This document shows, piece after piece, positions 5,364-23,547 of a stretch of 64,000 bases of DNA (within the stretch, counting starts at the first letter, position 1; every line of letters begins with the position of its first letter). This DNA comes from Actinoalloteichus fjordicus. Its GTDB lineage: Bacteria; Actinomycetota; Actinomycetes; Mycobacteriales; Pseudonocardiaceae. Below the pieces are notes generated by a model. That model had not been told where the DNA came from. It worked only from the letters and a program-made list of their open reading frames with translations, and made no database searches. The stretch lies in NCBI RefSeq assembly GCF_001941625.1, contig NZ_CP016076.1:2976001-3040000 (forward strand), written 5' to 3'. The translations under genes and the position numbers were made by a program.

Positions 5364-8300
5364 TCACGACCGCCCGCACGGGCAGATCTCCTCGGCGAGT
5401 CGCGCGCGAGCCTGCTCGGCCTCGGGGACCTCCAGGGTCTCGTAGACGGCCAGCGCCTCCCGCAGCCGCTCGATCGCCGCGTCCCGGTCGCCCAGTGAGA
5501 GGTGGGCGGTGGCCAGCGCGTCGAGTGCCCTGCCCTCCTCATAGCGGTTCTGGCACTCGCGTGCCCAGGCCAGTGCCGCGCGGTGATGGCGAAGCGCCTC
5601 GGTGCCGTTGCCGAGCGCGGTGAGCGCCAGACCGAGGTTGTTGAGGATCTCGGCGGCCACGGTCGGCTCGGTGCGGCCGACGATCTCCAGCGCCGCACGA
5701 TGATGCTCCGCCGCCTCCGCATGCCTGCCCAGCCTGGCCAGCGCGTTGCCCAGGTTCGTCAGCGGCGCGGCCTGACTGTCGCGATCCCCCAGCTCCTGCT
5801 TGATCCGCAGACCGTCGTGCAGCACCGCCAGGGCGCGGGCAGGTTCGTCGCCTCTGGCGAGGATCTTGCCGAGGTTGGTGAGGACGCGAGCCTCGCCGGT
5901 GCGGTCGCCGACCTCCCGATACGCCGTCAGCGCCTGCTCCGCACAGTTCAGGGCCTGGTCGAACTCGCCGAGCTGCTCGTGCAGCAGCGCCTTGTTGTTC
6001 AAGGTGCCCGCCAACATCGCGTTGGCGTCGTGGCGTCGGCACAGCGCGGCGGCCTGGCGGTGCCAGTCCAGGGCCTCGGCGGTGTGCCCGAGGCGGAACG
6101 CGGTGTTGGCGAGGCTGTTCATCGTGCGCCACTCGTACACCCAGTCCCCGGTCTGACGGTGCAGGTGCAGTGCACGCCGTGCCAGCCCCGAGGCCTCCTG
6201 GAAGCGGCCTGCGCTCCAGGTGGCGATCGCCAGGTGCGTCAGGGTCACGGCCACGCCGACCGTGTCGCCCGCCTGCTCCGCCGCTCGCAGCGCAGTGCGG
6301 TGGGTAGCGAGCCAGTAGGTGATGTGCCTGCGGTAGAGCAGATACCGCCACAGCGCGTTCGCCAGCCGCCACGCGGCCTCGCCGCGCCCCTGTTCGGCGG
6401 CGTGCTCTACGAGCATCACCAGGTTGACCTGCTGTGCGTCCAGCCAGTCCAGGCCCTCGGCCCGGTCGGCGAACTCCAGTCCGGCCTGTCCCGGCGTCCT
6501 GGGCTGCTGTTCGTGCATGGGGATGATGTGCGCGACGGCGGCCTCGGCGCTGCGTTGGAAGTGCCGAAGCAGACGCGTCATCGTGGCGTCCTGTTCGGCG
6601 GGCGAGTCCTGCTCGGTGCCCAGCTCGGTGGCGTACTCCCGCACCACGTCATGCAGCCGGAAGCCGCGATGCTCGCCGGGCTCGACCAGATGCGCGTCCG
6701 CCAGAGCCGTCAGATGTCGCCGTCCCTCGTCGTGCCCGACGTCGAGCAGTGCGGCGGCGCTGTGCAGGTCGATCTCGGCCAGGCCGCTGAGGCCGATCCG
6801 GCGGAACAGGCACTGCTGGGCCTCGGGCAGCAGGACATAGGACTGGTGGAACGCGGTGCGGACCGAGGCGTGCGGATCGTCGTCGAACTGGAGGTCGGCG
6901 AGCCTGCGTCCGTCGATCAGCCGCCTGGCCAGATCCCCGAGCCCGCGATCATCCGACATCCGCGCCACGGCGATGCGCAGCGCCAACGGCAGGTACGAGC
7001 ACAACGCGGCCAGGGCGAGCGCCGCCGAGGGCTCGCGCCGCACCACGTGCGTTCCGGCCACCCGACCGATCAGCTCGACCGAGTCCTCCGGTGAGAGGAC
7101 GTCCAGGGTCACCGAGTGCGCTCCGGTCGTGGCGATGAAGCCGCCGAGCCTGCGCCTGCTGGTCGCGATCAGCCTGCACTGATTGTCGCCGGGGATCAGC
7201 GGGTACAGCTGCTCGGCGCGCTGCACGTTGTCCACGGCGATGAGCAGGCGTCGCCCCGCCAGGGTGCTGCGGTAGAGGGCCGCGGCCGCCGACTCGTCGT
7301 CGGGTATCCGTTCGGCGGGGACGTCCAACGACCGCAGCAGCCGCTCCAGCGCCTCCTGAGCGGACACCGGGTGGCCGCCGCCGTGGCCGCGCATGTCGAG
7401 GTAGAGCTGGCCGCCGGGAAAGTGGTCGGCGGCCTGCTGCGCGCAGCGCAGAACCAGGCCGGTCTTGCCCACGCCCGCCATGCCGTCGACGATGATCACG
7501 GGACTGATGCTCGGATCGTCGTCCTGAAGCAGCCCCAGGATGCGCCGCTGCTCGGCTCGTCGGCCGGTGAACTGCGCGGTCCCGGCCGGGAGCTGCGCGA
7601 GCGGCCTGCCTGCCTGCTCCGATTCGCCGGAACCCTGGTCGGCCGCCAACAGCTGCTGATGCAGTCGGCGAAGGCCGGTGCCGGGATCGGTGCCGAGTTC
7701 GCGGGAGAGCGACTCGCGGGCCTTGGCGAAGACCGCGAGTGCCTCGTTAGGTCGCTCCTCCGCCCAGCGGACGCGCATCAGGAGTTCGTAGAGCGGCTCC
7801 CGCAGCGGATGCTCCGCCAGCAGGCCGCCCAGTTCGCGGGCCAGCCCTTCGATCTCGCCCGCGTCGAGATCCGCCGCGATCCGGGCCTCGACCGCGGTCA
7901 GCTGTTCCTCCTGCAGTCGTAGCCGGTTGCGCAGGACGAAGTCGCTCTCGCCTGCGCCCGCGAGCGGGTCGCCCTGCCACAGCCGGACCGCCTCGTGCAG
8001 CAGTGTGCGGCGATGCGGTCCCTGCGCGCCCTTCGCCCGGTCGAGGAGGGCGCGGAAGACGAAGAGGTCGACCGCCCCCTCCGACGCGGTGAGCCGGTAG
8101 CCCTCGGGGCGGGTCTCCACCACGACCGACGTCCGGCCGCTCAACGCCCGCCGGAGATTGGACACGTAGACCTGGATCGCCTTGCGCGCCGATGCGGGCG
8201 GATGCTCGCCCCACACGGCGTCGATGAGCTGCTCGACGGTGCGCGTGCGGCCGGGCTCCAGCAGCAGGGTGGCCAGCACACAGCGCTGTTTGGGCGGCCC

Positions 8301-8390
8301 GAGCGGTATGTCGGTCCCCCGAACATCCACGACACCCAGGAGCCGGAACATCGGCTCGCCGTCGTCAGTCCTCACGTCGTTCGCACCCAT
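5364..8390 (-). CDS. AfsR/SARP-family transcriptional regulator with NB-ARC and TPR domains
   Basis: A 1008-residue multidomain regulator. Residues about 14-100 form an OmpR-like winged helix (PPKQRCVLATLLLEPGRTRT, then QVYVSNLRRALSG). Residues 105-250 form the bacterial transcriptional activation domain (EAVRLWQGDPLAG, ELGTDPGTGLRRLHQQLL). An NB-ARC/STAND ATPase begins near 270 with P-loop GMAGVGKT at 303-310. Residues about 650-1000 contain TPR-like repeats (LTNLGKILARGDEPARALAV). This is the AfsR layout: ATP-dependent activation of secondary-metabolite genes by binding direct repeats near -35. The start ATG at 8390 follows GAGGGA; the frame is open further upstream. It is divergent from the lanthipeptide cluster, so it is a candidate cluster regulator, but this is inference. 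Confidence 0.9.
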   Translation of the reverse strand: MGANDVRTDDGEPMFRLLGVVDVRGTDIPLGPPKQRCVLATLLLEPGRTRTVEQLIDAVWGEHPPASARKAIQVYVSNLRRALSGRTSVVVETRPEGYRLTASEGAVDLFVFRALLDRAKGAQGPHRRTLLHEAVRLWQGDPLAGAGESDFVLRNRLRLQEEQLTAVEARIAADLDAGEIEGLARELGGLLAEHPLREPLYELLMRVRWAEERPNEALAVFAKARESLSRELGTDPGTGLRRLHQQLLAADQGSGESEQAGRPLAQLPAGTAQFTGRRAEQRRILGLLQDDDPSISPVIIVDGMAGVGKTGLVLRCAQQAADHFPGGQLYLDMRGHGGGHPVSAQEALERLLRSLDVPAERIPDDESAAAALYRSTLAGRRLLIAVDNVQRAEQLYPLIPGDNQCRLIATSRRRLGGFIATTGAHSVTLDVLSPEDSVELIGRVAGTHVVRREPSAALALAALCSYLPLALRIAVARMSDDRGLGDLARRLIDGRRLADLQFDDDPHASVRTAFHQSYVLLPEAQQCLFRRIGLSGLAEIDLHSAAALLDVGHDEGRRHLTALADAHLVEPGEHRGFRLHDVVREYATELGTEQDSPAEQDATMTRLLRHFQRSAEAAVAHIIPMHEQQPRTPGQAGLEFADRAEGLDWLDAQQVNLVMLVEHAAEQGRGEAAWRLANALWRYLLYRRHITYWLATHRTALRAAEQAGDTVGVAVTLTHLAIATWSAGRFQEASGLARRALHLHRQTGDWVYEWRTMNSLANTAFRLGHTAEALDWHRQAAALCRRHDANAMLAGTLNNKALLHEQLGEFDQALNCAEQALTAYREVGDRTGEARVLTNLGKILARGDEPARALAVLHDGLRIKQELGDRDSQAAPLTNLGNALARLGRHAEAAEHHRAALEIVGRTEPTVAAEILNNLGLALTALGNGTEALRHHRAALAWARECQNRYEEGRALDALATAHLSLGDRDAAIERLREALAVYETLEVPEAEQARARLAEEICPCGRS

Positions 8391-9094
8391 CCAGGTTCCC
8401 TCGTTCTGAGTAGACCCCGTCACCGTCGACTCGGTTCCCTCGAGCGGGAGGGCGGTGGCGTGATCCGGTCTGTTCATCCGTCGATTCGGCGTGCGGGCTG
8501 TGTCCTCACCGGTATGCCGGAGCGAGGGAAATGAACGAGATGACCATGAAATGAGTGTAGAACGCACTGGTCGGCGCGATGAGGCGGGCAAATCGCCTGC
8601 GAAGTCGACACCGGGTGACGAGGTGACTCCGGGCTGAACACCTCGCGGCCCGTTCCGCTGTCCTCGCGGGGTGGGCGTGATGCCCGGGCCTCAGGACGGC
8701 AGACGCGGGTCCGTACGGGCGGGCCCGCCGTGCGCTCACCGGCCGACCAGCCAGGCAGGCGATTACGATGCGTGACTGATCGTGGCGAGTCGGGTGCGGA
8801 AGGTGACGAGTGGTCGTCCTGCCTCGGAGATCGGCTTCGTGCAGCGGGCGAGGGTGTTTCCGGCGGGTGTGACGCTTGCGAGCGTTGGGAGGTCGATGAA
8901 ATCCCCGCATGTTGTCGGCGAAATTTGTTTCACGTTCGAGTGGTATCGCGCCGTCCGACTCACGTAGCGCTCATCTTTCCGTGGGAATCGGCTTGCTCGT
9001 TCGGAGTAGTCGATTCAGTAATTCGGTGGATTGGCTGGCCGGTGTTCAGCGTGAACAAATGATGTGACAACGACCGACTGGAGGGGCGTCGACG
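8391..9094. other. Intergenic region between SARP regulator and LanKC gene
   Basis: About 700 bases with no supportable gene on either strand. It is more AT-rich than its surroundings from about 8860 to 9070, as expected for a promoter region. A 13-base inverted repeat, GTTCA-GCG-TGAAC, lies at 9044-9056, about 40 bases before the LanKC start; it could be an operator. I did not find clear SARP direct heptamer repeats by eye. Confidence 0.5.
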
Positions 9095-11662
9095 ATGACT
9101 GCTCGGTATGAGGCCTACTGCTTCGCCGATCCCGTCTTCTATGACTCGTCGACGGCGGTCGGTGTTGAATCCGATGCATTCGAGGTCGAGCTGCCCGCGT
9201 TGCCGCCCGGCTGGCGAAGACATGATCGAGAAGACTGGGCGGTGTGCCTCAATATGTCGGGGGCGCTGCCGAGGCAGGGGTGGAAGATCCACGTTTCCGC
9301 AGGTCTGAGCAATGCCGGTCAGGTTCTCGACGCGGTGTGGAGATATTGCACATCGCAGGGAGTCTCGTTCAAGTTCTTGCGTACCAGACGTATTCTTCTC
9401 GCTAGAAACTCGAAATATGCCGAGCGGGCTGGCAGTGGAAAACTGATCACCATATACCCGCCGGACGAGGTGGCGCTTCGTCGAATTCTGGTCGATCTGG
9501 ACCGTCGGCTAGACGGCGCAGAAGGCCCTTATATACTCAGTGATCTTCGGTTTGCCTCCGGTCCGCTGTACCTCCGCTACGGCGGCTTCGTCGACCAGTG
9601 GATGATCGATGAGTCGGGGAATCGCGTGAGCGCCGTCACCCGCCCGGACGGCACCCTGGTCCCGGACCGCCGCGAGCCCCGCTTCGTCCTGCCGGACTGG
9701 GTCACGCTGCCGGACTTCCTCCAGCCGTACCTCGCCGCCCGCCGCGGCGGGCCGCCTGCCGACTTCGACTATCGGATCCACAGTGCGCTGCACTTCTCCA
9801 ACGGCGGCGGGGTCTACCTCGCGGACAGGCTCGGCGACGGCGTCGAGGTGGTGCTCAAGGAGGCGCGTCCGCTGGCTGGTCTCGACCGGGACGGCACCGA
9901 TGCCGTCACCCGACTGGACCGGGAGTGGACCGCCCTGCGCGCCCTCGCGGGCCTGCCCGGCGTCCCCGAGGCCTACGAACGTTTTCCACTGTGGGAGCAC
10001 CGGTTCCTCGCGATGGAGCGTCGGCCCGGCATCCCGTTGGGTCGCTGGCTGGCCGTGCATTACCCGCTCACCAGACAGGACCCCGCCCGAGACGAGCTGA
10101 TCGCCTTCCGCGACCGGGCGATGGCGATCCTGGCCGCCGTGGAGCGGCTCGTCGACGGCGTGCACGAGCGCGGCCTGGTCTTCGGAGACCTGCACGACCG
10201 CAACATCCTCATCGACGCCGACGACTCGGTTTCACTGATCGACTTCGAGCTGACCCTGCCGGTGGAGCAGGCCAGACGCCCCGCGCTCGGCGCGCCGGGC
10301 TTCACCGCGCCTGCCGACCGCGTCGGCTTCGAGATCGATCACTACGCCCTGGCGGCCCTGCGCCTGTGGATGTTCCTGCCGCTGAACGCGATGCTGGCGC
10401 TGGCACCGGACCGGCTGACCGCGCACCTCGCCTTCGCCACCGAACGGTTCGACCTGCCCGCCTCGTACGGCGACCGGCTGGCCGCCACCCTCCGAGGGCG
10501 CGGCTCGGCGGTCGACTCCCCGGCGCCGCGCACCGTGCTGGACGACGCGACGACGGACCCGGTCGCCGCCCGTGACTCCCTGCTGCGAGCGGTCCTCGCC
10601 TCCGCCACCCCGGACCGCGCCGACCGACTCTTCCCCGGCGACGTCGAACAGTTCTCCGTCGGCGGCGCCTGCTTCGCCCACGGGGCGGCCGGGGTGCTGT
10701 ACGCGCTGGACGTCGCGGGCGCCGAACGGCGTGTCGAGCATGAGCGGTGGCTGATCGAGGCCGTCCGCCGCGAGCCGCCGCCGCGTGCCGGGTTCTACGA
10801 CGGCGCGCACGGCATCGCCCACGTGCTGGACCGCCTCGGCCACCGTGAGACGGCCGACGAACTGATCGACGGCGCCGCGAGTCTCGTGCCGAGGATCACC
10901 GACCACGGCCTGCGCGGCGGGCTGGCAGGCATCGGCCTCAACCATCTGCATCTCGCGGCCACCCGGCGCGCTCCGGACCACCACGCCACGGCGGTGGAGA
11001 TCGGCACTCGGCTCGTCGACGTGCTGGCCCTCGCGCCCGCACCCGACCCGGAGGGGCGGGCACGAGCCGGGCTGCTGTACGGCTGGTCCGGGCCCGCGCT
11101 GCTGTTCCTGCGGCTGTACCAGCGCACCGGCGACCCGGCCTGGCTGACCGCCGCCGACCGGGCCGTGGGTCGAGACCTGTCGGAATGCGTCGCCGTTCCC
11201 GACGGCGCCACCCAGGTCCGCGACGGGTCCACGCGCACCCTGCCGTACCTGGACGTCGGCAGCGCGGGCATCGCCGTCGTGGTGAACGCGCTCGCCGCGC
11301 AGCACCCCGAGGCCGACTCCGCCTCGGCACTGCCGGATCTCCTGCACGCCTGCCTCGGCGACTTCGTGATCCACCCAGGACTGCTGCTGGGCCGGGCGGG
11401 ACTGATGGGCACCCTGGCGCTGGCCGCCCGGCGCCGCGCCGACCCGAGGATCGAGGCGGGCATCCGGCGGCATCGCGACCTCTTCGCCCTGCACGCCGTG
11501 CCCTACCAGGGCGAACTGGCCTTCCCCGGGCACCACCTGCTGCGGCTGTCGATGGACCTGGCGACCGGCGGGGCGGGCGTGCTGCTGGCCATGACCTGCG
11601 TGCTGGACCCGATCGCTCCGCTGCTGCCGTTCCTCGACGAGGTCGCCCGACCGCCGACGTGA
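9095..11662 (+). CDS. ramC: Class III lanthipeptide synthetase LanKC (RamC/AmfT-like)
   Basis: An 855-residue trifunctional enzyme that would phosphorylate, eliminate and cyclise Ser/Cys of the precursor encoded just downstream. Residues 1-220 resemble the lyase region (PILSDLRF-like and RYGGF segments). Residues 225-420 form a Ser/Thr kinase-like domain with VVLKEARPL (K255), GDLHDRN (364-370) and DFE (383-385). Residues about 520-845 form a LanC-like cyclase (YDGAHGIAHVLDRLG, GLLYGWSGPALLFL). The Cys-His zinc ligands of LanC/LanL are absent: GWSG and LGRAG replace the Cys-containing motifs. This is the class III hallmark. The ATG at 9095 has GGAGGGG 8 bases upstream. The first 450 bases use more A/T-ending codons than the rest. 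Confidence 0.95.
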   Translation: MTARYEAYCFADPVFYDSSTAVGVESDAFEVELPALPPGWRRHDREDWAVCLNMSGALPRQGWKIHVSAGLSNAGQVLDAVWRYCTSQGVSFKFLRTRRILLARNSKYAERAGSGKLITIYPPDEVALRRILVDLDRRLDGAEGPYILSDLRFASGPLYLRYGGFVDQWMIDESGNRVSAVTRPDGTLVPDRREPRFVLPDWVTLPDFLQPYLAARRGGPPADFDYRIHSALHFSNGGGVYLADRLGDGVEVVLKEARPLAGLDRDGTDAVTRLDREWTALRALAGLPGVPEAYERFPLWEHRFLAMERRPGIPLGRWLAVHYPLTRQDPARDELIAFRDRAMAILAAVERLVDGVHERGLVFGDLHDRNILIDADDSVSLIDFELTLPVEQARRPALGAPGFTAPADRVGFEIDHYALAALRLWMFLPLNAMLALAPDRLTAHLAFATERFDLPASYGDRLAATLRGRGSAVDSPAPRTVLDDATTDPVAARDSLLRAVLASATPDRADRLFPGDVEQFSVGGACFAHGAAGVLYALDVAGAERRVEHERWLIEAVRREPPPRAGFYDGAHGIAHVLDRLGHRETADELIDGAASLVPRITDHGLRGGLAGIGLNHLHLAATRRAPDHHATAVEIGTRLVDVLALAPAPDPEGRARAGLLYGWSGPALLFLRLYQRTGDPAWLTAADRAVGRDLSECVAVPDGATQVRDGSTRTLPYLDVGSAGIAVVVNALAAQHPEADSASALPDLLHACLGDFVIHPGLLLGRAGLMGTLALAARRRADPRIEAGIRRHRDLFALHAVPYQGELAFPGHHLLRLSMDLATGGAGVLLAMTCVLDPIAPLLPFLDEVARPPT

Positions 11663-11741
11663 CGTTCGACCGTCGGCCCCCTGAGCCCGTCCGCCGTCCG
11701 GCGGACGGCGGAGAAGAAGAATCAACGAAGGAGATCCACCG

Positions 11742-11879
11742 ATGGAGTTCGTCCTCGACCTGCAGGCGACCGAGACCCCCGACGCCCACCTCGAGGTGGC
11801 AGGCGGGGGAGCGGGCGGCAGCCGTGCCAGCCTCCTGCTGTGCGGCGACAGCGGCCTGAGCGTCGTCACCTGTAACTGA
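11742..11879 (+). CDS. ramS: SapB/AmfS-like class III lanthipeptide precursor
   Basis: A 45-residue peptide gene. The leader begins MEFVLDLQATETP and contains the LDLQ-type recognition motif (FDLQ in RamS). The core is about residues 25-45, including SRASLLLCGDSGLSVVTCN. It holds two S-x-x-S-x-x-x-C motifs (S27/S30/C34 and S37/S40/C44), the ring-forming pattern of class III peptides. Compared with RamS (SapB) as I remember it, the core differs at about four of 21 positions, all conservative or Ser/Thr/Gly changes. In Streptomyces the modified peptide is a surfactant needed for aerial hyphae. AAGGAG lies 8 bases before the ATG. It follows the LanKC gene by 79 bases, and a strong hairpin follows it. 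Confidence 0.95.
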   Translation: MEFVLDLQATETPDAHLEVAGGGAGGSRASLLLCGDSGLSVVTCN

Positions 11880-11920
11880 CGCTCGGACACCGCTCGGAGC
11901 CGGGATCGGCTGCTGAGTGA

Positions 11921-11966
11921 GACGGGCGGGAGCGGCACAATCCACGTGCGCCGCTCCCGCCCCGTC
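11921..11966 (+). terminator. Strong hairpin between lanthipeptide precursor and transporter genes
   Basis: GACGGGCGGGAGCGGC (11921-11936) pairs with the sequence at 11950-11966 across a 13-base loop; one base is bulged. There is no T-run, so it is more likely a partial terminator or an mRNA-stabilising structure that keeps precursor transcript levels above those of the ABC genes. That role is inferred from other lantibiotic operons. Confidence 0.7.
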
Positions 11967-12001
11967 CATCATGGTCGATCTTGACGAGAGAGAGGACGGG
12001 C

Positions 12002-13690
12002 ATGGCGCTCGGAGCGGGAGATCGCCTCCTGATGCGCACCGTCTCGCAGCGCCGAGGAGCCCTGTTCCTCCTGGTCGGCAGTGGTCTGTGCGGCACGATC
12101 GCCGTGCTGCTGCTGCCTGCCGCACTGTCCCGAGGAGTGGACGCCGCCGTGGCGGGCTCGCCGATGGCCGCCGCCGTCTGGGTCGTGCTGGCCTTGGCCG
12201 TGGTCGACATCGTCACCGAGATCCTCGGCGAGGTCCTGCGTGCCCGGCTCGTCGCCGACACGGGCGCCGAGCTGCGCCGAGGCCTCGTCCGGCACCTGGT
12301 CGCCTTGGGCACCCGACGTCATCCGTTCCGCCCCGGCGACGCCCTCAGCAGACTCACCAGCGACTGCGCCGAGGCTGGTGGCGCGGCGGTGATCCTCGTC
12401 GGCCTGCTCACCGCGGCGCTGTCGGCACTGGGCGCCCTGGCCGCCCTGGCGCTGCTGGACTGGCGGCTCGCGGTGGTCTTCGTCCTCAGCCTGCCGCCCG
12501 CCGTCCTGCTGGCGGGCGGGCACCTGCGTCGCACCGCAGGCCATGTCGCCGACTACCAGCGGATCTCCGGTGAACTCGCGGGGAGACTCGTCGACGCCGT
12601 GCGCGGGCGGCGCACCATCCTCGCCGCAGGCATCGCCGAGCAGGAGACCGTCAGGGTGCTGCGCCCGCTGGGCGCGCTCGGCGAGGCGGGCCGAGGCATG
12701 TGGCGCACGCAGTCGGTGATGGTCTGGCGTGCCGCGCTGCTGCTGCCCGCAGTGGAGGCCGCCGTCGGCGTCACCGCCGGGTTCGGCGTCGCCGCAGGCA
12801 GGCTGACCGCAGGAGAGCTGCTGGCCGCGCTCGGCTATGTCGCCCTGGGCATGGGGCTGGTGCGCTCCGCCGCGCTGCTCACCACCCTCGCGTCGGCGCG
12901 GGCGGGCGCCGCGCGGCTCGCCGAGGTCCTGACCACGCCGACTCCGTCAGACCTGGGACTCCCGGCCCCGGCGGGCGGGGGGAGGCTGGAGTTCGACCGG
13001 GTGAGCGTGCACGACGATCAGGGCGAGCCCGCGCTCCGGGACCTCACGTTCGACGTGCCCGAGGGCGGGTTCCTCGCCGTCGTGGGGTTCTCCGGTGCCG
13101 GAAAGTCCGCCGTGGCGGCGGCGGCGGGCGGTCTGCTGATTCCGGATGCCGGGGAGGTCCGCATCGACGGCGTCGCGGTCAGCGCGCTCGGCCCGTCCGC
13201 GCGTCGCGCCGTGGTGGGGCAGGCGTTCGACCGACCGGTGCTGATCGGGGACACCGTGGGCGCGGTCGTCGGCTACGGCGGGACCGAGGACGAGTCACGG
13301 GTGCGGTCGGCGGCCGTGGCCGCGCGCATCGACGACGCGGTGCTCCGGCTGCCCGAGGGCTATCGCACCGCGACGGCGGACGCGCCCTTCTCCGGCGGGG
13401 AGGTCCAGCGGCTGGGGCTGGCGCGGGCGCTGGTCGCCGAGCCGAGGGTGCTCGTCCTCGACGACGCGACCGCCAGCCTGGACACGGTCACGGAGGCCGA
13501 GGTCAACCGGGCCATCGTCACCGCGCTGCCCGGACGGACACGGCTGGTCGTGACGCATCGCGTCGCCGTGGCGGCGGGCGCTGATCGGGTGCTGTGGCTG
13601 CACCAGGGCAGCCGCCGAGGCCTGGCGACGCACGAGACGCTCTGGCGCGATCCCGCCTATCGCGCGGTCTTCGCCGAGGCACCGGGATGA
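12002..13690 (+). CDS. ramA: ABC exporter subunit, RamA-like (lanthipeptide cluster)
   Basis: A 562-residue half-transporter with about six membrane segments in residues 15-310 and a nucleotide-binding domain at about 335-555. Walker A is GFSGAGKS near 361, the signature is FSGGEVQRLGLARA near 463, and Walker B is RVLVLDDATASLD near 482. In Walker B, Asp replaces the usual catalytic Glu. With the next gene it should form a heterodimer that exports the modified peptide, as RamA/RamB or AmfA/AmfB do. The start ATG at 12002 is preceded by GAGAGGAC; a TTG 21 bases upstream is in frame but less likely. It ends in an ATGA overlap with the next gene, so translation is coupled. Confidence 0.9.
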   Translation: MALGAGDRLLMRTVSQRRGALFLLVGSGLCGTIAVLLLPAALSRGVDAAVAGSPMAAAVWVVLALAVVDIVTEILGEVLRARLVADTGAELRRGLVRHLVALGTRRHPFRPGDALSRLTSDCAEAGGAAVILVGLLTAALSALGALAALALLDWRLAVVFVLSLPPAVLLAGGHLRRTAGHVADYQRISGELAGRLVDAVRGRRTILAAGIAEQETVRVLRPLGALGEAGRGMWRTQSVMVWRAALLLPAVEAAVGVTAGFGVAAGRLTAGELLAALGYVALGMGLVRSAALLTTLASARAGAARLAEVLTTPTPSDLGLPAPAGGGRLEFDRVSVHDDQGEPALRDLTFDVPEGGFLAVVGFSGAGKSAVAAAAGGLLIPDAGEVRIDGVAVSALGPSARRAVVGQAFDRPVLIGDTVGAVVGYGGTEDESRVRSAAVAARIDDAVLRLPEGYRTATADAPFSGGEVQRLGLARALVAEPRVLVLDDATASLDTVTEAEVNRAIVTALPGRTRLVVTHRVAVAAGADRVLWLHQGSRRGLATHETLWRDPAYRAVFAEAPG

Positions 13691-16119
13691 CGGCAGAGGA
13701 GCAGCCCGCCCACGGGCGCCGGGGGACCGGAGACGGCGTGGCACTGGAACCCGGCCGGCCCGGTCTCGCCGGGCGGCCCGATCGACCGGACCGAGAGGAC
13801 CGAAGCCTGCGGCGGCGGTCGCCGGGCGGAGCAGGCCGGGGGGACCGCGCTGCGGGTGCCGAGGCCGTCATGCCCGAGGATGCCGGGGGCCGCCTCCGAC
13901 GTCGCGCCCGAGATCGTCGGGGTGCCCGAGGCCTCGGTGCCCTCCCGTCCCCCGCGACCTCCGCCGTGCCGGGGGCTTCCGCCGCGGACGAGGACCGGGG
14001 ACGCACCCCGGTCGATGTCGGCGAGGTCGCTGTCCATCGACCGCCGGGCCCGCTGCGCCTCCTGCGTCGAGCCCTCGCGGGCAGTCGTCGGACCGTGGCG
14101 GTGATCCTGGGCTGGTCGCTGGTGGAGGGCGTGCCCGCGCTGCTCTCCGGCGCACTGGTCGGTCTCGCGCTGGACCGGGGGTTCGGGATCGGCCTGCCGT
14201 GGATCGGCACCGCATGGCTGCTGCTGCTCGCCGGGGTCTGTGTCATCGGGGCGATCGGGTCACGACTCGTCTTCGCCCGACTCGGCGACGTTGTGGAGCC
14301 GCTGCGCGACAACCTGGTCACCGAGGTCGTGCGCGGCGTCCTGCACGCGGCACCCGGCGGTGCCTCGACCGGCGATGCCGGGGCGGTGGCGCGGATCACC
14401 CGACACGTCGAGGTCGTCCGGGACGTCGTCGCGGGCCTGCTCGTCCAGGCCAGGGGACTGGTGGTGACCACGGTCGCCTCGGTGGTCGGGCTGGCCGTCG
14501 TCGCGGGCCCGCTGATCTGGCTGGTCCTGCCCCCCGTGGTGTGCGCGCTGCTGCTCTTCGCCCTGCTGTTGCGTCCGCTCGCCCGCAGGCAGCGGGACCT
14601 GGTCCTGGCGGACGAGGGGACGGCGGCCACGGCGGGCACCGTCTTCGCCGGGATGCGCGACGTGGTGGCCTGCGGCGCATCGGACACCGCGATCACGCAG
14701 GTGGCCTCCGGAGTCGAGGCCCAACGTCGGGCGGCCGTCCGACTCGGGACGGCCGGGGCTCTGCGGGTGTTGATCGTCGGGCTGGGCGGGCTGGTGCCGC
14801 TGCTGCTCGTGCTGGCCGCCGCCCCCGGCCTGGTCGCCGAGCAGCGCCTCAGCCAAGGGGCCGTGCTGGCCGCCATGGTCTACCTGACGACCGGTGTGCA
14901 GCCGACGCTGATCGCGCTGGCTCAGACGGCGGGCACCGCCGTGCTCCGCCTCGTCACCACCCTGCGGCGGCTCGCCGAGGGCGCGGCCGCGCCGGAGGAC
15001 CCCGGTGAGACGGCCACGATCTCGTCCGCCGCTGCGGATCCGAGCCGCAGCACGGGCGAGTCGTCGGGCCCGCGCACCGAGCCCGACTCCGGGACCGCCG
15101 TCGTCGTCCGCGAACCCGCCGCAGGCGACGCCGCCCGCCCTGCCGCTTCCCGCGCGGCAGGCAGGCCCGCCAGCCCGACCGGGTCGACCGGGTCGGCAGG
15201 GTCGACCGGGTCGCCGCAGGCTGCGGCAGAGCAGGCCGAGAGCGATCTGCCAGGAGCTCCGACGCCTGCCGCCGAGCGTCTCCCCACAGCTTCGGTCGCT
15301 CGCGACGCCTCGATCTCCGGCGCACGGTGCGACGGCGCGCCGCTGCTGCGGGTCCGGGGCGTCACCTTCGGCTGGGGCGCCGCCGCGAGACCGGTGGTGC
15401 GAGATCTCTCGGTCGAGTTGGGCCCCGGCGATCATCTCGCTGTGATCGGCCCCAGCGGCATCGGCAAGTCGACCCTGGCCGGGCTGCTCACCGGCGGGCT
15501 CCGACCTGCCTGCGGGACCGTCACGCTGGGGGGCGTGCCCGTCGCGGCGATGCGCCCGGCGGCTCGCGGCCGCGAGATCGTCCTCATCCCGCAGGAGACC
15601 TACCTGTTCGCCGGCACCGTGCGGGAGAACCTGGCGCTGCTGACGCCGACGGCCGACGACGGCACGCTGCTCGCCGCAGCCGAGGCGGTCGGCGCGGCCG
15701 GACTGATCCGCGAACTGGGCGGGCTCGACTCCGACATCGGCCACGGCGGCGGTGCGCTCTCCGCAGGCCAGGCGCAGCTCATCGCCCTGAGTCGGGCCTA
15801 CGCCACCGACGCACCGGTCGTCGTGCTCGACGAGGCCACCGCCCACCTCGATCCGCGGGCCGAGGCGCGCGCCGAGACCGCCTTCGCGCACCGAGGCGGC
15901 ATCCTCGTGGTCATCGCGCACCGGCTCAGCTCCGCCGTCCGCGCGCGGCGGGTGCTGCTCATGGACGGCGCCAGGGTCCACTCCGGCAGCCATCGGGAGC
16001 TGATCGAGTCCTCCAGGCTCTACGCCGATCTCATGCGGGCCTGGTCCGTGCCGGCCGGCGCAGCGGCCCCTGGGGCGGCCGAGTCCCCCGGCGAACCCGG
16101 GCCGGGCAGCGCAGGCTGA
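13687..16119 (+). CDS. ramB: ABC exporter subunit, RamB-like, with unusual linker and N-terminal tail
   Basis: An 810-residue half-transporter, much longer than the usual 570-620. Residues 1-120 are a hydrophilic Gly/Arg/Pro/Glu-rich tail. Membrane segments lie at about 135-430. Residues about 435-550 are a low-complexity Ala/Ser/Pro/Gly linker containing GSTGSAGSTGS. The nucleotide-binding domain follows with Walker A GPSGIGKST near 588, signature LSAGQAQLIALSRA near 690 and Walker B PVVVLDEATAHLD near 710. The ATG overlaps the previous stop (ATGA), so the start is well fixed and the tail is probably real. It should pair with the preceding subunit for peptide export. The catalytic Glu, weaker in the partner, is present here. 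Confidence 0.88.
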   Translation: MTAEEQPAHGRRGTGDGVALEPGRPGLAGRPDRPDREDRSLRRRSPGGAGRGDRAAGAEAVMPEDAGGRLRRRARDRRGARGLGALPSPATSAVPGASAADEDRGRTPVDVGEVAVHRPPGPLRLLRRALAGSRRTVAVILGWSLVEGVPALLSGALVGLALDRGFGIGLPWIGTAWLLLLAGVCVIGAIGSRLVFARLGDVVEPLRDNLVTEVVRGVLHAAPGGASTGDAGAVARITRHVEVVRDVVAGLLVQARGLVVTTVASVVGLAVVAGPLIWLVLPPVVCALLLFALLLRPLARRQRDLVLADEGTAATAGTVFAGMRDVVACGASDTAITQVASGVEAQRRAAVRLGTAGALRVLIVGLGGLVPLLLVLAAAPGLVAEQRLSQGAVLAAMVYLTTGVQPTLIALAQTAGTAVLRLVTTLRRLAEGAAAPEDPGETATISSAAADPSRSTGESSGPRTEPDSGTAVVVREPAAGDAARPAASRAAGRPASPTGSTGSAGSTGSPQAAAEQAESDLPGAPTPAAERLPTASVARDASISGARCDGAPLLRVRGVTFGWGAAARPVVRDLSVELGPGDHLAVIGPSGIGKSTLAGLLTGGLRPACGTVTLGGVPVAAMRPAARGREIVLIPQETYLFAGTVRENLALLTPTADDGTLLAAAEAVGAAGLIRELGGLDSDIGHGGGALSAGQAQLIALSRAYATDAPVVVLDEATAHLDPRAEARAETAFAHRGGILVVIAHRLSSAVRARRVLLMDGARVHSGSHRELIESSRLYADLMRAWSVPAGAAAPGAAESPGEPGPGSAG

Positions 16120-16162: not shown

Positions 16163-17599
16163 TCAGCCCAGCGCCCACAGCGTCGACCAGGCCAACCCGG
16201 TGACCACGAGGGTCGAGGCCAGCCCGAGCAGCAGGGCGCGCGGGCCGGTCCGCCGCAGCGCGGCCAGGCGAACCGTCGTGCCGAGGCCGAACAACGCCGC
16301 CGCGAGCAGGACGGTCGTGAGTGTCGCGGCCTGCGCCAGGACGACGTCGGGCAGCAGGCCGCTGCTGCGCAGCGCCACCGAGGCGAGGAAGCCTGCCACG
16401 AACAGCGGGATCAGCGGCGGCCGAGTCCCCGTCGTCGGTCTGCGGCGCCGTTCGACGACGCTGATCGCCGCGATCAGCGGTGCCAGCAGCACGACTCGGC
16501 TCAGCTTCACCACCACGGCCGAGGTGACGGCCTCCTCGCCTGCGGGTGCGGCGGCGGCGACCACCTGCGCCACCTCGTGCACGCTGAGCCCGATCCACCG
16601 GCCCAGGTGCTGCTCGTCGAGCCCGAGCGCCCCGCCCGCCAGGGGCAGCGCCGCCACCGCGAGACTGCCGTAGAGGGTGACCAGGGCGATCGCGGTCACG
16701 ACGTCCCGTTCCTCGCGTCTGATCACTCCCTCGACGGCCGCCACCGCCGAAGCGCCGCACACCGCGAATCCCGTGCCCACACACAGCGACAGGCCACGGG
16801 AGAGCCCCAGGAGCCTGCCGAGCCAGACCGTGACCACGAAGGTCCCCGCCACGGTGAGCAGGACGGCGAGCAGCACGCCGGGACCGACGCCGAGCAGCTG
16901 CGGGATCGACAGCCCCAACCCGAGCAGCACCACACCCGCCCGCAGCAGTCTGCGGGTCGCCCACGTGACGCCGACCGAGGCGGCGGCGGGCAGCAGCGGC
17001 AGGTTTCCGGCCAGCACACCGAGCAGCAGTGCCGCCGTCACCAACCCGACGGACGGGATCGCGGCGTGCAGCACCGCCGCGAGCCCGACGGCGACGGCGA
17101 CGACGACGAGCCCCGGCACCAGCCGGGCGGGGGCGAGGCGAGAACTCGAGGCGGCGACGGTCGACGGTCGCGGGTCGGTCGGCGGTGCGCCGATGTCGCA
17201 GGCGTCGGAGGACGGGTCGCCGGCTGCCGTCGAGACGCCGACGGTGCTCTCGCCGCAGGCCTCCGCGTCTGCGGTGGGACGGTCTGCGCTGGGACGCTCG
17301 GCGTCGGAACCGGTCGGGTGCGGTCCGCCTGCCACCGGACGGGTCGTCTCGGTGACGGCTCCACGATTGCAGGCCGACGCGGCGGTGCCCACGGCGACAC
17401 TGTCGGCACCGAGGGCGGCCGGGCTGCATCCGGCCCCGGCGTCGCAGGCCGCGAGGCACGCTTCGCCGTCCGCCGAGCCGGCACCACCCGCGCAGTCCCA
17501 CGAATCCGACGCAGGCCGGGCCCGTCCCGCGTCCACCGCCTCCTCGCCCGCCCACCTCGGGAGGCGGTCTGCTCCTGTCGTCGGGTCGCCGATGCTCAC
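16163..17599 (-). CDS. YeiH/UPF0324-family putative sulfate or anion exporter
   Basis: A 478-residue protein. Residues 160-478 contain about ten membrane segments and match the YeiH family (PF03601), with GLVTAALLLGVLAGN, VLLGLGLSIPQLL, CVGTGFAVCGASAVAA and SVHEVAQVVAAA as conserved blocks. In Escherichia coli yeiH is next to a LysR gene (yieE/yeiE), and here too a LysR gene diverges from it. Substrate uncertain; sulfate or sulfite has been suggested for relatives. Residues 1-155 form a soluble Ala/Ser/Asp/Thr-rich extension with several Cys, not part of the family. The true start could be further in, but no strong ribosome site was seen nearer the membrane domain. Convergent with the lanthipeptide exporter. 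Confidence 0.87.
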   Translation of the reverse strand: MSIGDPTTGADRLPRWAGEEAVDAGRARPASDSWDCAGGAGSADGEACLAACDAGAGCSPAALGADSVAVGTAASACNRGAVTETTRPVAGGPHPTGSDAERPSADRPTADAEACGESTVGVSTAAGDPSSDACDIGAPPTDPRPSTVAASSSRLAPARLVPGLVVVAVAVGLAAVLHAAIPSVGLVTAALLLGVLAGNLPLLPAAASVGVTWATRRLLRAGVVLLGLGLSIPQLLGVGPGVLLAVLLTVAGTFVVTVWLGRLLGLSRGLSLCVGTGFAVCGASAVAAVEGVIRREERDVVTAIALVTLYGSLAVAALPLAGGALGLDEQHLGRWIGLSVHEVAQVVAAAAPAGEEAVTSAVVVKLSRVVLLAPLIAAISVVERRRRPTTGTRPPLIPLFVAGFLASVALRSSGLLPDVVLAQAATLTTVLLAAALFGLGTTVRLAALRRTGPRALLLGLASTLVVTGLAWSTLWALG

Positions 17600-18964: not shown

Positions 18965-19984
18965 ATGGTGCCGCACTCGTCCCCCCGGAATCTACGCCGG
19001 GTGGTCGTCGGCCTCACCGCCGCTCTCCTGCTGGTGTCGGCCTGCGGCACGGCCGACGAGTCCGCCGAGTTACCGGACACCGGATTCGAGGGCGACAGCG
19101 GAGCGGGCGCCGCCTTCCCCGTGACCATCGAGCACCAGTACGGCGAGACCGAGATCACCGAGCCGCCGCAGCGCATCGTCACCCTCGGCATCAATGATCA
19201 TGACCCGTTGCTGGCGCTGGGCGTGACGCCGATGGCCGTCCATCCCTGGGTCGGATTGGACTCGGTGGGCCCGTGGGCGGCCGACGCCCTCGGCGACGCC
19301 GAGCCGGCGGTCCTGCCCGGCAACTCCGACCCGACGCCAGAGGAGGTGCTCGCTCTGGCACCCGATCTGATCCTCGCGGTGACCTACTCCATGGACGAGG
19401 CCACCTACGATGCGCTCTCCGAACTGGTGCCCACGGTCGTCCGCTCGGCAGATCACGCCGACTACGCCATCCCGTGGCAGGACCACACCGAGGTGATCGG
19501 TGATGCCGTCGGCAAGCCCGACGAGGCCGCCGCGCTGATCGAGGAGACCGAGACGCTGCTCGCCGACACCGCCACCGAACATCCGGAACTGGCGGGCCGG
19601 ACCGGCGCCGCGCTGCTGCCCAACCCCGACGGCGGCTACTGGCCGTTCACCGACCTCGACGCCCGAGGCCAGTTCATGACGGCCATGGGATTACGACTGC
19701 CCGACGAGTTGGCCGAACTCGACGACGGCGCCTTCTACATCGACCTCAGCGCCGAGCGGATGGACCTGTTGGAGTCCGATGTACTGGTGATCCTCGACCA
19801 GGGCGGCAGCGAGGAGGCCGCCCAGGACGACGCGGTCTTCCAGGCACTGGACGTCGTCGAGCGGGATGACGTCATCTGGCTGGACACCGAATACCTCGGG
19901 TTGGCCATGGCGCACAACACGGTGCTGAGCATTCCCTACACGATCGACGAACTCCTGCCCCTGATCGTCGAGAAGGTGGGTTGA
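18965..19984 (+). CDS. Siderophore-iron ABC transporter substrate-binding lipoprotein
   Basis: A 339-residue FecB/FepB-type binding protein. Residues 1-28 are a lipoprotein signal with lipobox LVSAC (Cys at about 27). The TroA-like fold follows, with EPPQRIVTLGINDHDPLLALG, PTPEEVLALAPDLIL and a long linking helix, typical of class III binding proteins. It would capture a ferric siderophore at the cell surface and pass it to the permeases downstream. The ATG at 18965 has GAAGGG upstream. The gene is the first in an iron-box-controlled operon. It contains two TTA codons (19070 and 19691), rare in such GC-rich DNA, which suggest dependence on the bldA-type leucine tRNA. Confidence 0.93.
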   Translation: MVPHSSPRNLRRVVVGLTAALLLVSACGTADESAELPDTGFEGDSGAGAAFPVTIEHQYGETEITEPPQRIVTLGINDHDPLLALGVTPMAVHPWVGLDSVGPWAADALGDAEPAVLPGNSDPTPEEVLALAPDLILAVTYSMDEATYDALSELVPTVVRSADHADYAIPWQDHTEVIGDAVGKPDEAAALIEETETLLADTATEHPELAGRTGAALLPNPDGGYWPFTDLDARGQFMTAMGLRLPDELAELDDGAFYIDLSAERMDLLESDVLVILDQGGSEEAAQDDAVFQALDVVERDDVIWLDTEYLGLAMAHNTVLSIPYTIDELLPLIVEKVG

Positions 19985-20015
19985 CCCGGCCGCAGCTCGG
20001 CAGCCGCGAACGTCC

Positions 20016-21422
20016 ATGCACGAGGGAAGACGAGATGTGGAACGAGGCGACCGGACTCGTCGCAGCGTTGTCGAGGCCTCCGGGGCCACCCGGGCGGCAG
20101 CCGTGACGACGCTGCCCCCTGGCGGATCGGTGCCCGGTCCAGTGCCGGGCACCGGCACGGTCGAACCCCGGTCCGTCGCGAATCGATCGACGGACCGGGC
20201 TGCCCTCGACAGTGGTGCGCGGACCCGCTCCGGGCCGCCTGCCGCCGACGAATCCCGGCAGGCGGGCGGCGGCACCGCCGCCGCGGGGCAGGAGCGGGGC
20301 TCCGCCGGGGACCACGTCGTCGGAGCAGGTTCAGCCTCGACCGGCCCGGCGGACGAGGACTCCACCGACCCCGCGACCGTCGATCCCGTCGGCCGCCCGT
20401 CCGTCCGGCGCACCCTCGGGCTCGGCGCGGGCCTGCTGGGACTCGGGCTGGTGCTGCTGGTCGCGGTGCTCGCCGGGCTGGCCGTCGGCGCCAAGCCCAT
20501 CCCGTTCTCCGTGGTGCTGGACGCCTTCACCCACGACGGATTCTGGACCTTCGACGCCGCCGACGGCGATCACCTCGTCGTCCGGGAGATGCGGCTGCCC
20601 AGGACGCTGCTCGGCATCCTGGCGGGCGTGGCGCTCGGTGTCGCGGGCGCCCTGATGCAGGGCGTGACCCGCAATCCGCTGGCCGACCCTGGAATCCTCG
20701 GGGTGAACGCGGGCGCCGCCTTCTTCCTGGTGACCGCGATCAGTGTTCTCGGGGTCACCACGTTGACCGGATACGTGTGGTTCGGCTTCGCGGGGGCGGC
20801 GGTGAGCGTCGTCGTGATCTACGGCATCGCGGCGATGGGTCGCGAGGGCGCGACGCCGCTCAAGCTCGCGTTGGCCGGTGCGGCCATGAACGCCGCGCTG
20901 CTGTCGTTGACCACGGCGGTGCTGATCACCGACTCCGCCGCCTTCGACCGTTTCCGCTTCTGGCAGGTCGGCGCGTTGGCGGGTCGAGGGATGGACGTGG
21001 TGGTGCAGGCGCTGCCCTTCATCCTCGCCGGGCTGCTGCTCGCGCTGGTCTGCGGCCGGGTGCTCAACGCGCTCTCGCTCGGGGAGGACCTCGCGCGGTC
21101 GCTCGGCAGACGGGTCGGCCGTGATCGACTGCTCGTCCTGATCGCCGTCGTGGTGCTCTGCGGGACGGCCACGGCCGCAGCGGGTCCGATCGGCTTCATC
21201 GGTCTCGCGGTGCCGCACGTCGCCCGGCTGATCACCGGACCCGACTACCGGTGGATCCTCGCCTACTCGGCGTTGCTCGCCCCCATCCTCCTGCTGACCG
21301 CCGACATCCTGGGGCGTGTCGTCGCGAATCCGGGTGAACTGCAGGTCGGGGTCGTCACGGCCGTGCTCGGGGCGCCCCTGTTCATCGCGTTGATCCGCCG
21401 ACGTCGACTGCTGGAGCTGTGA
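20016..21422 (+). CDS. FecCD-family siderophore ABC permease (first)
   Basis: A 468-residue protein. Residues about 130-468 are a FecCD permease with about nine or ten membrane segments. Conserved blocks are MRLPRTLLGILAGVALGVAGALMQGVTRNPLADPGILGVNAG (given here as a landmark region at about residues 193-234), GLAVPHVAR and the C-terminal GAPLFIALIRRRR. It forms the channel of a ferric-siderophore importer with the next permease. Residues 1-130 are hydrophilic and low in complexity, absent from the family. The start at ATG 20016 has a poor ribosome site; a GTG near 20102 in the same frame is an alternative. It lies 31 bases after the lipoprotein gene and overlaps the next start. Confidence 0.9.
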   Translation: MHEGRRDVERGDRTRRSVVEASGATRAAAVTTLPPGGSVPGPVPGTGTVEPRSVANRSTDRAALDSGARTRSGPPAADESRQAGGGTAAAGQERGSAGDHVVGAGSASTGPADEDSTDPATVDPVGRPSVRRTLGLGAGLLGLGLVLLVAVLAGLAVGAKPIPFSVVLDAFTHDGFWTFDAADGDHLVVREMRLPRTLLGILAGVALGVAGALMQGVTRNPLADPGILGVNAGAAFFLVTAISVLGVTTLTGYVWFGFAGAAVSVVVIYGIAAMGREGATPLKLALAGAAMNAALLSLTTAVLITDSAAFDRFRFWQVGALAGRGMDVVVQALPFILAGLLLALVCGRVLNALSLGEDLARSLGRRVGRDRLLVLIAVVVLCGTATAAAGPIGFIGLAVPHVARLITGPDYRWILAYSALLAPILLLTADILGRVVANPGELQVGVVTAVLGAPLFIALIRRRRLLEL

Positions 21423-22603
21423 TGGCGACCAACGGAACCGGCGGCATCCTCGATCGGGCGGGCTCGGAGCGAACCCCGTCCGGCGCGCCAGGAACCCGGC
21501 CCGCAGGCGGGCCGCCTCGGCGGGACCGGGGCGGCGACCGGCCAGACTCCCCTCGCCGTCCTGGCGCGACCGAGTCCGCTCGACACGCGGTGGCCCGCGC
21601 CCGTCGGGGACAGGGCCTGCGGAACACGGCGGTGACGCTGGGTCTGGCCGTCGCGGTGCCCGTCGTCCTGGTCGTGTCGTTGTCCCTCGGCGACTTCCCC
21701 GTCCCGGCCTCCGAGGTCCTCGCCTGGTTCGTCGGCGGTGCCCAGCCCACGACCGACTTCATCATCGGCGGACTGCGCCTGCCTCGGGCCCTGACCGGAC
21801 TACTGGTGGGCGTCGCGCTCGGCCTCTCGGGCGCCCTGTTCCAGAGCCTGCTGCGCAATCCGCTCGCCAGCCCGGACATCATCGGCATCACCTCGGGGGC
21901 GTCCGCCTCCGCCGTCATCTCCATCGTGGTGTTCGGGGCGAGCGGCGCGGCGGTGTCGATCGGTGCGGTCTGCGGCGCGCTGGTCACCGCGCTGGCGATC
22001 TATCTGCTGGCCTGGCGACACGGAGTCGCCGGACAGCGGCTGGTGCTGGTGGGCATCGGCGTGGCGGCGATCCTCACCGCCGTCATCTCCTACGTGATGA
22101 CCAGGTCCCGTGTCGAGACCGCCGAGGCGGCCCTCGTCTGGCTGACCGGCAGCCTCCACTCCAGGACCTGGGCCCATGCGACGCCGCTGCTGTGGTGTCT
22201 GGCCGTGCTGCTTCCCCTGGTGGTGGTGCTGTCCCGACCACTGCGTGCGCTGCAACTGGGCGACGATTCGGCAGCGGGACTGGGCGTCCGGGTGGAGCGC
22301 TCGCGGCTGGGGCTGATCACGGTCGGCGTGGCCTTGGCGGCCGTGGCCACCGCCGCCGCCGGTCCGGTGTCCTTCGTGGCGCTGGTCGCCGCGCCCATCG
22401 CCCGGCGGCTGACCGCAGGAGCGGGCCTCGCGCTGCTGCCGTCCGCCCTGACCGGCGGTCTCCTCGTCCTCACGGCCGACCTGATCGCCCTGCACCTGAT
22501 CGACGGCGTCGACTTCCCGGTGGGCGTGATCACCGGGCTGGTGGGGGCGCCGTACCTGCTGTGGCTGCTGGCCGTGTCGAATCGCGGAGGACGAAGCGGA
22601 TGA
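21422..22603 (+). CDS. FecCD-family siderophore ABC permease (second)
   Basis: A 393-residue permease of the same family as its upstream neighbour, the usual arrangement for a heterodimeric importer. Membrane segments occupy about residues 65-390. Conserved blocks include RLPRALTGLLVGVALGLSG, NPLASPDIIGITSG, GPVSFVALVAAPIARRL and the C-terminal GAPYLLWLL. Residues 1-60 are an Arg/Gly/Pro-rich cytoplasmic tail. The ATG at 21422 shares one base with the preceding TGA, and GGAG lies 5 bases before, so translation is coupled. It should act with the FecE-type ATPase at 22719. Confidence 0.92.
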   Translation: MATNGTGGILDRAGSERTPSGAPGTRPAGGPPRRDRGGDRPDSPRRPGATESARHAVARARRGQGLRNTAVTLGLAVAVPVVLVVSLSLGDFPVPASEVLAWFVGGAQPTTDFIIGGLRLPRALTGLLVGVALGLSGALFQSLLRNPLASPDIIGITSGASASAVISIVVFGASGAAVSIGAVCGALVTALAIYLLAWRHGVAGQRLVLVGIGVAAILTAVISYVMTRSRVETAEAALVWLTGSLHSRTWAHATPLLWCLAVLLPLVVVLSRPLRALQLGDDSAAGLGVRVERSRLGLITVGVALAAVATAAAGPVSFVALVAAPIARRLTAGAGLALLPSALTGGLLVLTADLIALHLIDGVDFPVGVITGLVGAPYLLWLLAVSNRGGRSG

Positions 22604-22718
22604 CGCCCGATGGAGTCGATCGCCGCCGACGCGCCCCCCGCGGATGCAGACCGCGCGGAATGAGACGCGACGGACGGCGTGGAGTGGACGTGGTGGCACA
22701 GGTGATGAGGAGCATCGG

Positions 22719-23543
22719 ATGACGGACCGACACACGCTGAGCGCGGAGAATCTGCGCCTGTCCTACGGCAGCCGCGAGGTCGTCAAGGACCTGAACGTGC
22801 AGATCCGGCCGGGAAAGGTCACCGTGATCGTCGGGGCCAACGCCTGCGGGAAATCCACGCTGCTGCGTGGGCTGGCCCGGCTGCTGGCCCCCGCCGCAGG
22901 CACGATCCACCTCGACGGCAAGGACATCAACTCCCAGTCGACCAAGGCGGTGGCTGCGGTGCTCGGCCTGCTTCCGCAGTCGCCGACCGCCCCGGAGGGC
23001 ATCCGGGTCGCCGACCTGGTGGGCCGGGGCCGCTACCCGCATCAGGGCTGGTTCCGCCAGTGGAGCACGGGCGACGACGACGCCGTGGCCGAGGCGTTAC
23101 TGGCCACCGGAACCCTGGAACTGGCCGGGCGCTCCATCGACGAGCTCTCCGGCGGCCAGCGACAGCGGGTCTGGATCGCCATGGCGCTGGCCCAGGGCAC
23201 CGACCTTCTGCTGCTCGACGAGCCGACCACCTTCCTCGACGTCAGCCATCAGATCGAGGTGCTGGACCTGCTGACGGACCTGAACCGGCGCAAGGGCAGC
23301 ACCGTGGTGCTGGTGCTCCACGACCTGAACCTGGCCTGCCGGTACGCCGACCACCTCATCGCGATGAAGCAGGGCGCCATCGTCGCCGAGGGCGCACCGA
23401 CCGACGTCGTGACCGAGGAGCTGGTGTCGGACGTGTTCGGCATGGCCTCGCGGGTGGTGCCCTGCCCCGTCTCGGCCACGCCGATGGTCGTTCCGATCGG
23501 CAGGCACCACTCGGCCACCGCCGTCGACTCCGTGTCGGGCTGA
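22719..23543 (+). CDS. FecE-type siderophore ABC transporter ATPase
   Basis: A 274-residue ATPase powering the permease pair. Walker A GANACGKST is near residues 40-48, the signature LSGGQRQRVWIAMALAQ near 143, Walker B LLLLDEPTTFLD near 165, and the switch His follows in VLVLHDLN. The length is normal for the family. The frame is open upstream, but ATG 22719 has GAGGAG 7 bases before it and gives the family's normal N-terminus (MTDRHTLSAENLRLSYG). It contains one TTA codon at 23097. It is 4 bases from the next gene, so all five iron genes are probably one transcript. Confidence 0.94.
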   Translation: MTDRHTLSAENLRLSYGSREVVKDLNVQIRPGKVTVIVGANACGKSTLLRGLARLLAPAAGTIHLDGKDINSQSTKAVAAVLGLLPQSPTAPEGIRVADLVGRGRYPHQGWFRQWSTGDDDAVAEALLATGTLELAGRSIDELSGGQRQRVWIAMALAQGTDLLLLDEPTTFLDVSHQIEVLDLLTDLNRRKGSTVVLVLHDLNLACRYADHLIAMKQGAIVAEGAPTDVVTEELVSDVFGMASRVVPCPVSATPMVVPIGRHHSATAVDSVSG

Positions 23544-23547
23544 GGCG

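Follow-up and report, generated by a model that had tools for sequence, protein, structure and literature searches.

A SapB/AmfS-type class III lanthipeptide cluster in Actinoalloteichus fjordicus and an exporter-gene remnant in a congener

The window analysed here, a 64 kb stretch (bases 2976001-3040000) of the host genome, which belongs to a member of the Pseudonocardiaceae and consists of one contig of 7.12 Mb, carries a four-gene cluster encoding a LanKC synthetase, a precursor peptide and two ABC exporter halves. The identity and the order of the four genes are established, since curated models and gene order confirmed the class III SapB/AmfS-like cluster in ram/amf order which an earlier note had placed at 9095-16119. 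We regard the cluster as a class III lanthipeptide operon that is complete and of SapB/AmfS type, with a surfactant or morphogen as probable product, and assign this reading a probability of about 0.85; modification, ring type, export and function of the peptide are inferred from the family. The features are compiled in Table 1, in which the start codons of the four cluster genes are those predicted as likeliest by position.

Table 1. Genes of the cluster and their direct neighbours, in window coordinates.
Feature	Position	Strand	Length	Basis or remark
AfsR-like SARP	5364-8591	-		direct upstream neighbour, gap ~0.5 kb
LanKC, class III lanthionine synthetase (lyase-kinase-cyclase)	9095-11662	+	855 aa	curated models and solved chains
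SapB/AmfS-family precursor	11742-11879	+	45 aa	NF033212, PF19402
First ABC exporter half (RamA/AmfA position)	12002-13690	+	562 aa	PF00005, PF00664
Second ABC exporter half (RamB/AmfB position)	13687-16119	+	810 aa from chosen start	PF00005, PF00664
PF03601 membrane protein	16163-17599	-		direct downstream neighbour, gap 43 bases

Synthetase, precursor, exporters and flanking genes

The class III model NF038151 (cut-off 575) scored the synthetase at 1013 bits, whereas the class IV model yielded 362 bits and stayed under its cut-off of 650, which places the enzyme in class III. The RamC_N domain (PF25816, 256.5 bits, cut-off 27) and PF05147 (25.6 bits, cut-off 23.2) were also detected; the kinase model PF00069 scored 26.2 bits, below its cut-off of 31.7. 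Solved full-length LanKC chains (8sao, 8sap and 8sam) align with residues 55-838. The class III model and these solved relatives fit, and the cyclase domain may lack the usual zinc ligands. Lys116, Lys255, Asp365 and Asp383 are invariant in the ten LanKCs compared. The latter three are, judging by their motifs, presumably the kinase residues, and Lys116 is aligned with a lysine of a solved LanKC. For ThurKC, one such enzyme, the available text of PMC10604976 describes a metal-free cyclase, a catalytically important Lys117 in the lyase domain and leader binding via a helix that carries a critical LELQL motif.

In a LanKC tree the window synthetase falls inside a clade of 59 rows with a support of 97, the other rows being Pseudonocardiaceae or same-family genomes with the exception of one Rhodococcus. 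The tree was obtained by a quick method with a midpoint root, and the window branch is long and its exact neighbour (L075) unsure. The SapB-like core could point to a horizontal acquisition from Streptomyces; for the synthetase this is unsupported given the Pseudonocardiaceae-dominated clade, the tree being composed of the nearest matches to a query built from the host's own family and Streptomyces being thinly sampled. In codons 1-150 of the gene (window 9095-9545) third-position GC amounts to 0.68, 0.70 and 0.52, compared to approximately 0.9 over most remaining codons; a mosaic LanKC was considered on these grounds and set aside, as a milder dip is also present in relatives L049 and L055. 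The LanKC alignment of Umezawaea tangerina (L111, 10001-12544) contains an in-frame stop, so that either the gene is disrupted or the sequence is in error.

The precursor scored 62.5 bits with the SapB/AmfS model NF033212 (cut-off 25) and 54.8 bits with the RamS model PF19402 (cut-off 24.3). The label 'unlisted' previously attached to it is misleading because the peptide lies well over the cut-offs of both curated models. An unannotated precursor would be normal in any case, since approximately 55% of the class III precursors found by one survey had no gene annotation (available part of PMC7268733). The LDLQ motif, located at leader residues 5-8, and the two S-x-x-S-x-x-x-C motifs of the core had both been claimed before and can be read directly from the gene. 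The window contains a single ORF whose C-terminus bears the two-motif signature, whereas none of 200 first-order Markov resamplings of the window contained one. The Shine-Dalgarno-like sequence GAAGGAGA is present upstream of the ATG. Searching plasmids with the precursor as query yielded no match.

The two exporter genes, overlapping by 4 bases, are located directly downstream of the precursor, as is typical for the SapB/AmfS family. PF00005 and PF00664 recognized the first half with 66.9 and 41.2 bits and the second with 82.7 and 28.6 bits, respectively. Of 20 loci chosen from other genomes, 19 have a counterpart of the first half at the corresponding place in the gene order, with 49-60% identity. 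The second half carries an N-terminal extension, alignments to relatives starting at residue 116-139, and an Ala/Ser/Pro/Gly-rich low-complexity linker before the ATPase domain (window 14980-15345) that exceeds the linker of each of the 18 measurable relatives by 64-109 residues. The Walker B motif ends with Asp-Asp in the first ATPase and with Asp-Glu in the second. An Asp/Glu split of this kind between the two ATPases is a sign of a heterodimer; it was observed in 14 of the 20 loci, with one motif or none detected by the pattern used in the remaining six. Neither exporter contains a peptidase domain by Pfam, and therefore leader removal should come from elsewhere. A protease gene is absent from the direct neighbours of the cluster, and actinobacterial class III clusters are described as usually lacking one in the available text of PMC7268733.

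Examination of the direct neighbours did not reveal a RamR/AmfR-like response regulator, a point in which the cluster departs from the ram/amf operons. This is to be expected, since ramR has been reported solely from streptomycetes as far as the available text of PMC4255298 goes. The divergent AfsR-like SARP gene as dedicated regulator is unsupported, as copies with 87% and 70% identity occur in two congeners without the cluster, these matches containing one and two in-frame stops; among the 20 chosen loci just one weak SARP match (30%) was obtained. Control via TTA codons (bldA) is not indicated, the four cluster genes containing not a single TTA codon. Window 18965-27581 holds uptake genes of the siderophore type, encoding a binding protein, two permeases and an ATPase, and after these a pair of ABC exporter genes.

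Core sequence and the Ser-to-Gly change

Genome G542 (L181) encodes TGSRASLLLCGDSSLSITTCN, which we take to be the SapB core, together with a LanKC 45% identical to that of the window. The window core is identical to this sequence in 17 of 21 positions and differs by T1G, S14G, I17V and T18V, in agreement with the 'about four of 21' differences noted earlier. SapB and the window precursor have an LxLQ-type leader motif in common, whereas the end of the window leader is longer and glycine-rich. The ramCSAB cluster of Streptomyces coelicolor shows the same LanKC-precursor-ABC-ABC order according to the available text of PMC4255298. In Actinoalloteichus caeruleus DSM 43889 (L106, identical with L053) the core is 18/21 identical to that of the window and contains the same Gly, and the LanKC is 55% identical; unlike the window, this locus has a LanKC and a SapB-like precursor with no exporter pair within 10 kb. 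Durhapeptin and its relatives share the two S-x-x-S-x-x-x-C motifs with the window, and their LanKC-precursor-transporter layout has been likened to ram and amf (available part of PMC13380574). The durhapeptin core sequence is unlike the window core, and the likeness to durhapeptin and to AmfS (amfTSAB, Streptomyces griseus) is taken from the published descriptions in that same part. In locus L179 (G500) three SapB-type precursors lie next to each other and share a single core, which is 18/21 identical to the window's.

The Ser-to-Gly change had been thought to cost one dehydrated residue, an expectation that is not supported. The site is the first of the free positions in the second motif and coincides with none of the Ser and Cys that define the motif. 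Subtracting four waters from the SapB core gives a computed monoisotopic mass of 2025.96 Da. This agrees with the mass of SapB, approximately 2026 Da, and would leave the Ser in question unmodified. From this mass arithmetic the changed Ser is probably not dehydrated in SapB, and its replacement by Gly should leave the number of dehydrated residues as it is. The position is also variable in relatives: among 56 distinct two-motif precursors (S-x-x-S-x(2-5)-C), drawn from 69 distinct peptides of the best 80 of 582 LanKC relatives and six further loci with the window's own excluded, it is occupied by T (41), S (5), G (3), D (3), A (2), H (1) and W (1). The strict S-x-x-S-x-x-x-C motif occurs twice, as in the window, in nine of these 69 peptides (same best 80 of 582 plus six loci), where T (3), S (3), G (2) and A (1) are found. 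Precursors were located by pattern in 71 of the best 80 loci, so other precursor types were missed. With four dehydrations, the predicted [M+H]+ of the window product is 1936.94 for a core of 21 residues, 1879.92 for 20 and 2007.97 for 22.

The proposal of a new SapB variant stands for the individual sequence, as the core is absent from 71 pooled precursor strings (69 distinct peptides; best 80 of 582 and six loci); it does not stand for the kind of peptide, the NCBI SapB/AmfS-type family comprising more than 4,000 sequences (available part of PMC13380574). The claim of novelty is weak, the core representing one more member of a common, well-described family.

Distribution in the family and loss within the genus

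Of 297 genomes of the host's family, the window's own among them, 142 contain a match to the SapB/AmfS model, with 140 above the cut-off and 31 of 46 genera represented; the 142 is approximate, as some weaker rows contain a stop inside the match. With the single 45-residue peptide as a stricter query, matches were limited to 3 further genomes in a set of 396 from the phylum. The order LanKC-precursor-exporter is kept in 19 of 20 loci chosen from the family-model matches, A. caeruleus being the exception and the second exporter of L047 being cut by a contig end. Among the best 80 of 582 LanKC loci, 55 have both exporters downstream in the same orientation and no more than 7 kb away, 21 lack both although there is room for them, and four are cut by a contig end without showing both.

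The genus was sampled with three genomes, the window's included, and the SapB-type cluster is absent from both congeners (G076 and G043). Because both do without it, the genus does not depend on the cluster. The flanks of the site in G076 match the window as far as base 8652 on the upstream side and from base 15316 onward on the downstream side; approximately 80 bases separate them. A clean empty insertion site was dismissed there, since the stretch between the SARP and PF03601 genes (L174, about 9070-9780) matches window 15316-16119, where the second exporter's ATPase end is encoded. This remnant is frameshifted, its match lying in two reading frames and 14 of 21 alignment gap runs not being multiples of three. 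As a frameshifted exporter remnant is located between the same flanks, the G076 lineage once possessed at least the second exporter gene and has lost it, most simply by deletion of the whole cluster. Only approximately 0.3 kb separates the SARP flank (to 8428) from the siderophore-binding gene (from 18913) in G043, which therefore lacks the cluster together with the two genes that follow it in the window. The absence from the congeners and the remnant in G076 are new here.

Proposed function and alternatives

By analogy with the family, LanKC would recognize the leader through its LDLQ helix, act on the four serines of the core motifs by phosphorylation and elimination, and then form two thioether rings, either lanthionine or labionin. 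The two ABC half-transporters would pair as a heterodimer exporting the peptide, and a protease encoded elsewhere would remove the leader. SapB/AmfS-family peptides of related soil bacteria help filaments grow into the air, and the secreted amphipathic peptide would correspondingly act as surfactant or morphogen in aerial growth, a role that is plausible by homology.

The same cluster might form labionin or mixed rings in place of the two lanthionines reported for SapB and AmfS, a possibility we consider real but doubtful: ring types differ within the SapB/AmfS/durhapeptin group, the synthetase sequence is a poor guide to them, and a durhapeptin variant from a related cluster has been assigned two labionins (all from the available text of PMC13380574), but the window core is 17/21 identical to the SapB-identical core. 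That near identity, with the hydrophobic residues kept, likewise argues against a strain-specific signal or weak antimicrobial instead of an aerial-growth surfactant. We consider this unlikely, even though the cluster is patchily present in the genus and the durhapeptin variant was selectively active on 4 of 17 tested strains carrying such clusters, according to the same portion of PMC13380574.

A cluster that is silent or beginning to decay in the host genome is quite improbable. The frameshifted exporter remnant of G076 between the same flanks and the second-exporter linker, longer than in every measurable relative, would fit such decay, but the four frames are open, the catalytic motifs are intact and the precursor is preceded by its Shine-Dalgarno-like sequence. 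The surfactant or morphogen of an ordinary SapB/AmfS-type operon is the reading we prefer. To a further idea, that the SapB-type peptide is selected as a strain-marking developmental signal, its core being near-constant across deeply diverged synthetases and its cluster lost within the genus, we give little credence; if true, the host strain would make the morphogen and its close kin would be just listeners.

The cluster leaves the knowledge of the SapB/AmfS family unchanged. Its contribution is a further SapB-type cluster from outside Streptomyces, with a core position at which natural variants can carry Gly; only the congener remnant and the core conserved across diverged synthetases are of mild interest. 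With presence, remnant and absence of the cluster, the genus offers a comparison that could serve as a modest test case for the part of the peptide in aerial growth.

Approximately 100 kb upstream of the window the host encodes a second LanKC (genome positions 2882524-2885094, L038; 695 bits), followed by a 34-residue precursor detected by the class III model NF038154 with 26.5 bits (cut-off 22). G076 contains a LanKC scoring like this second synthetase (443 versus 463 bits with one LanKC query model). Also beyond the window, at genome positions 2104885-2106033 (L005), a LanC-like domain (176 bits) is present in a 1147-residue frame that perhaps represents another lanthipeptide synthetase.
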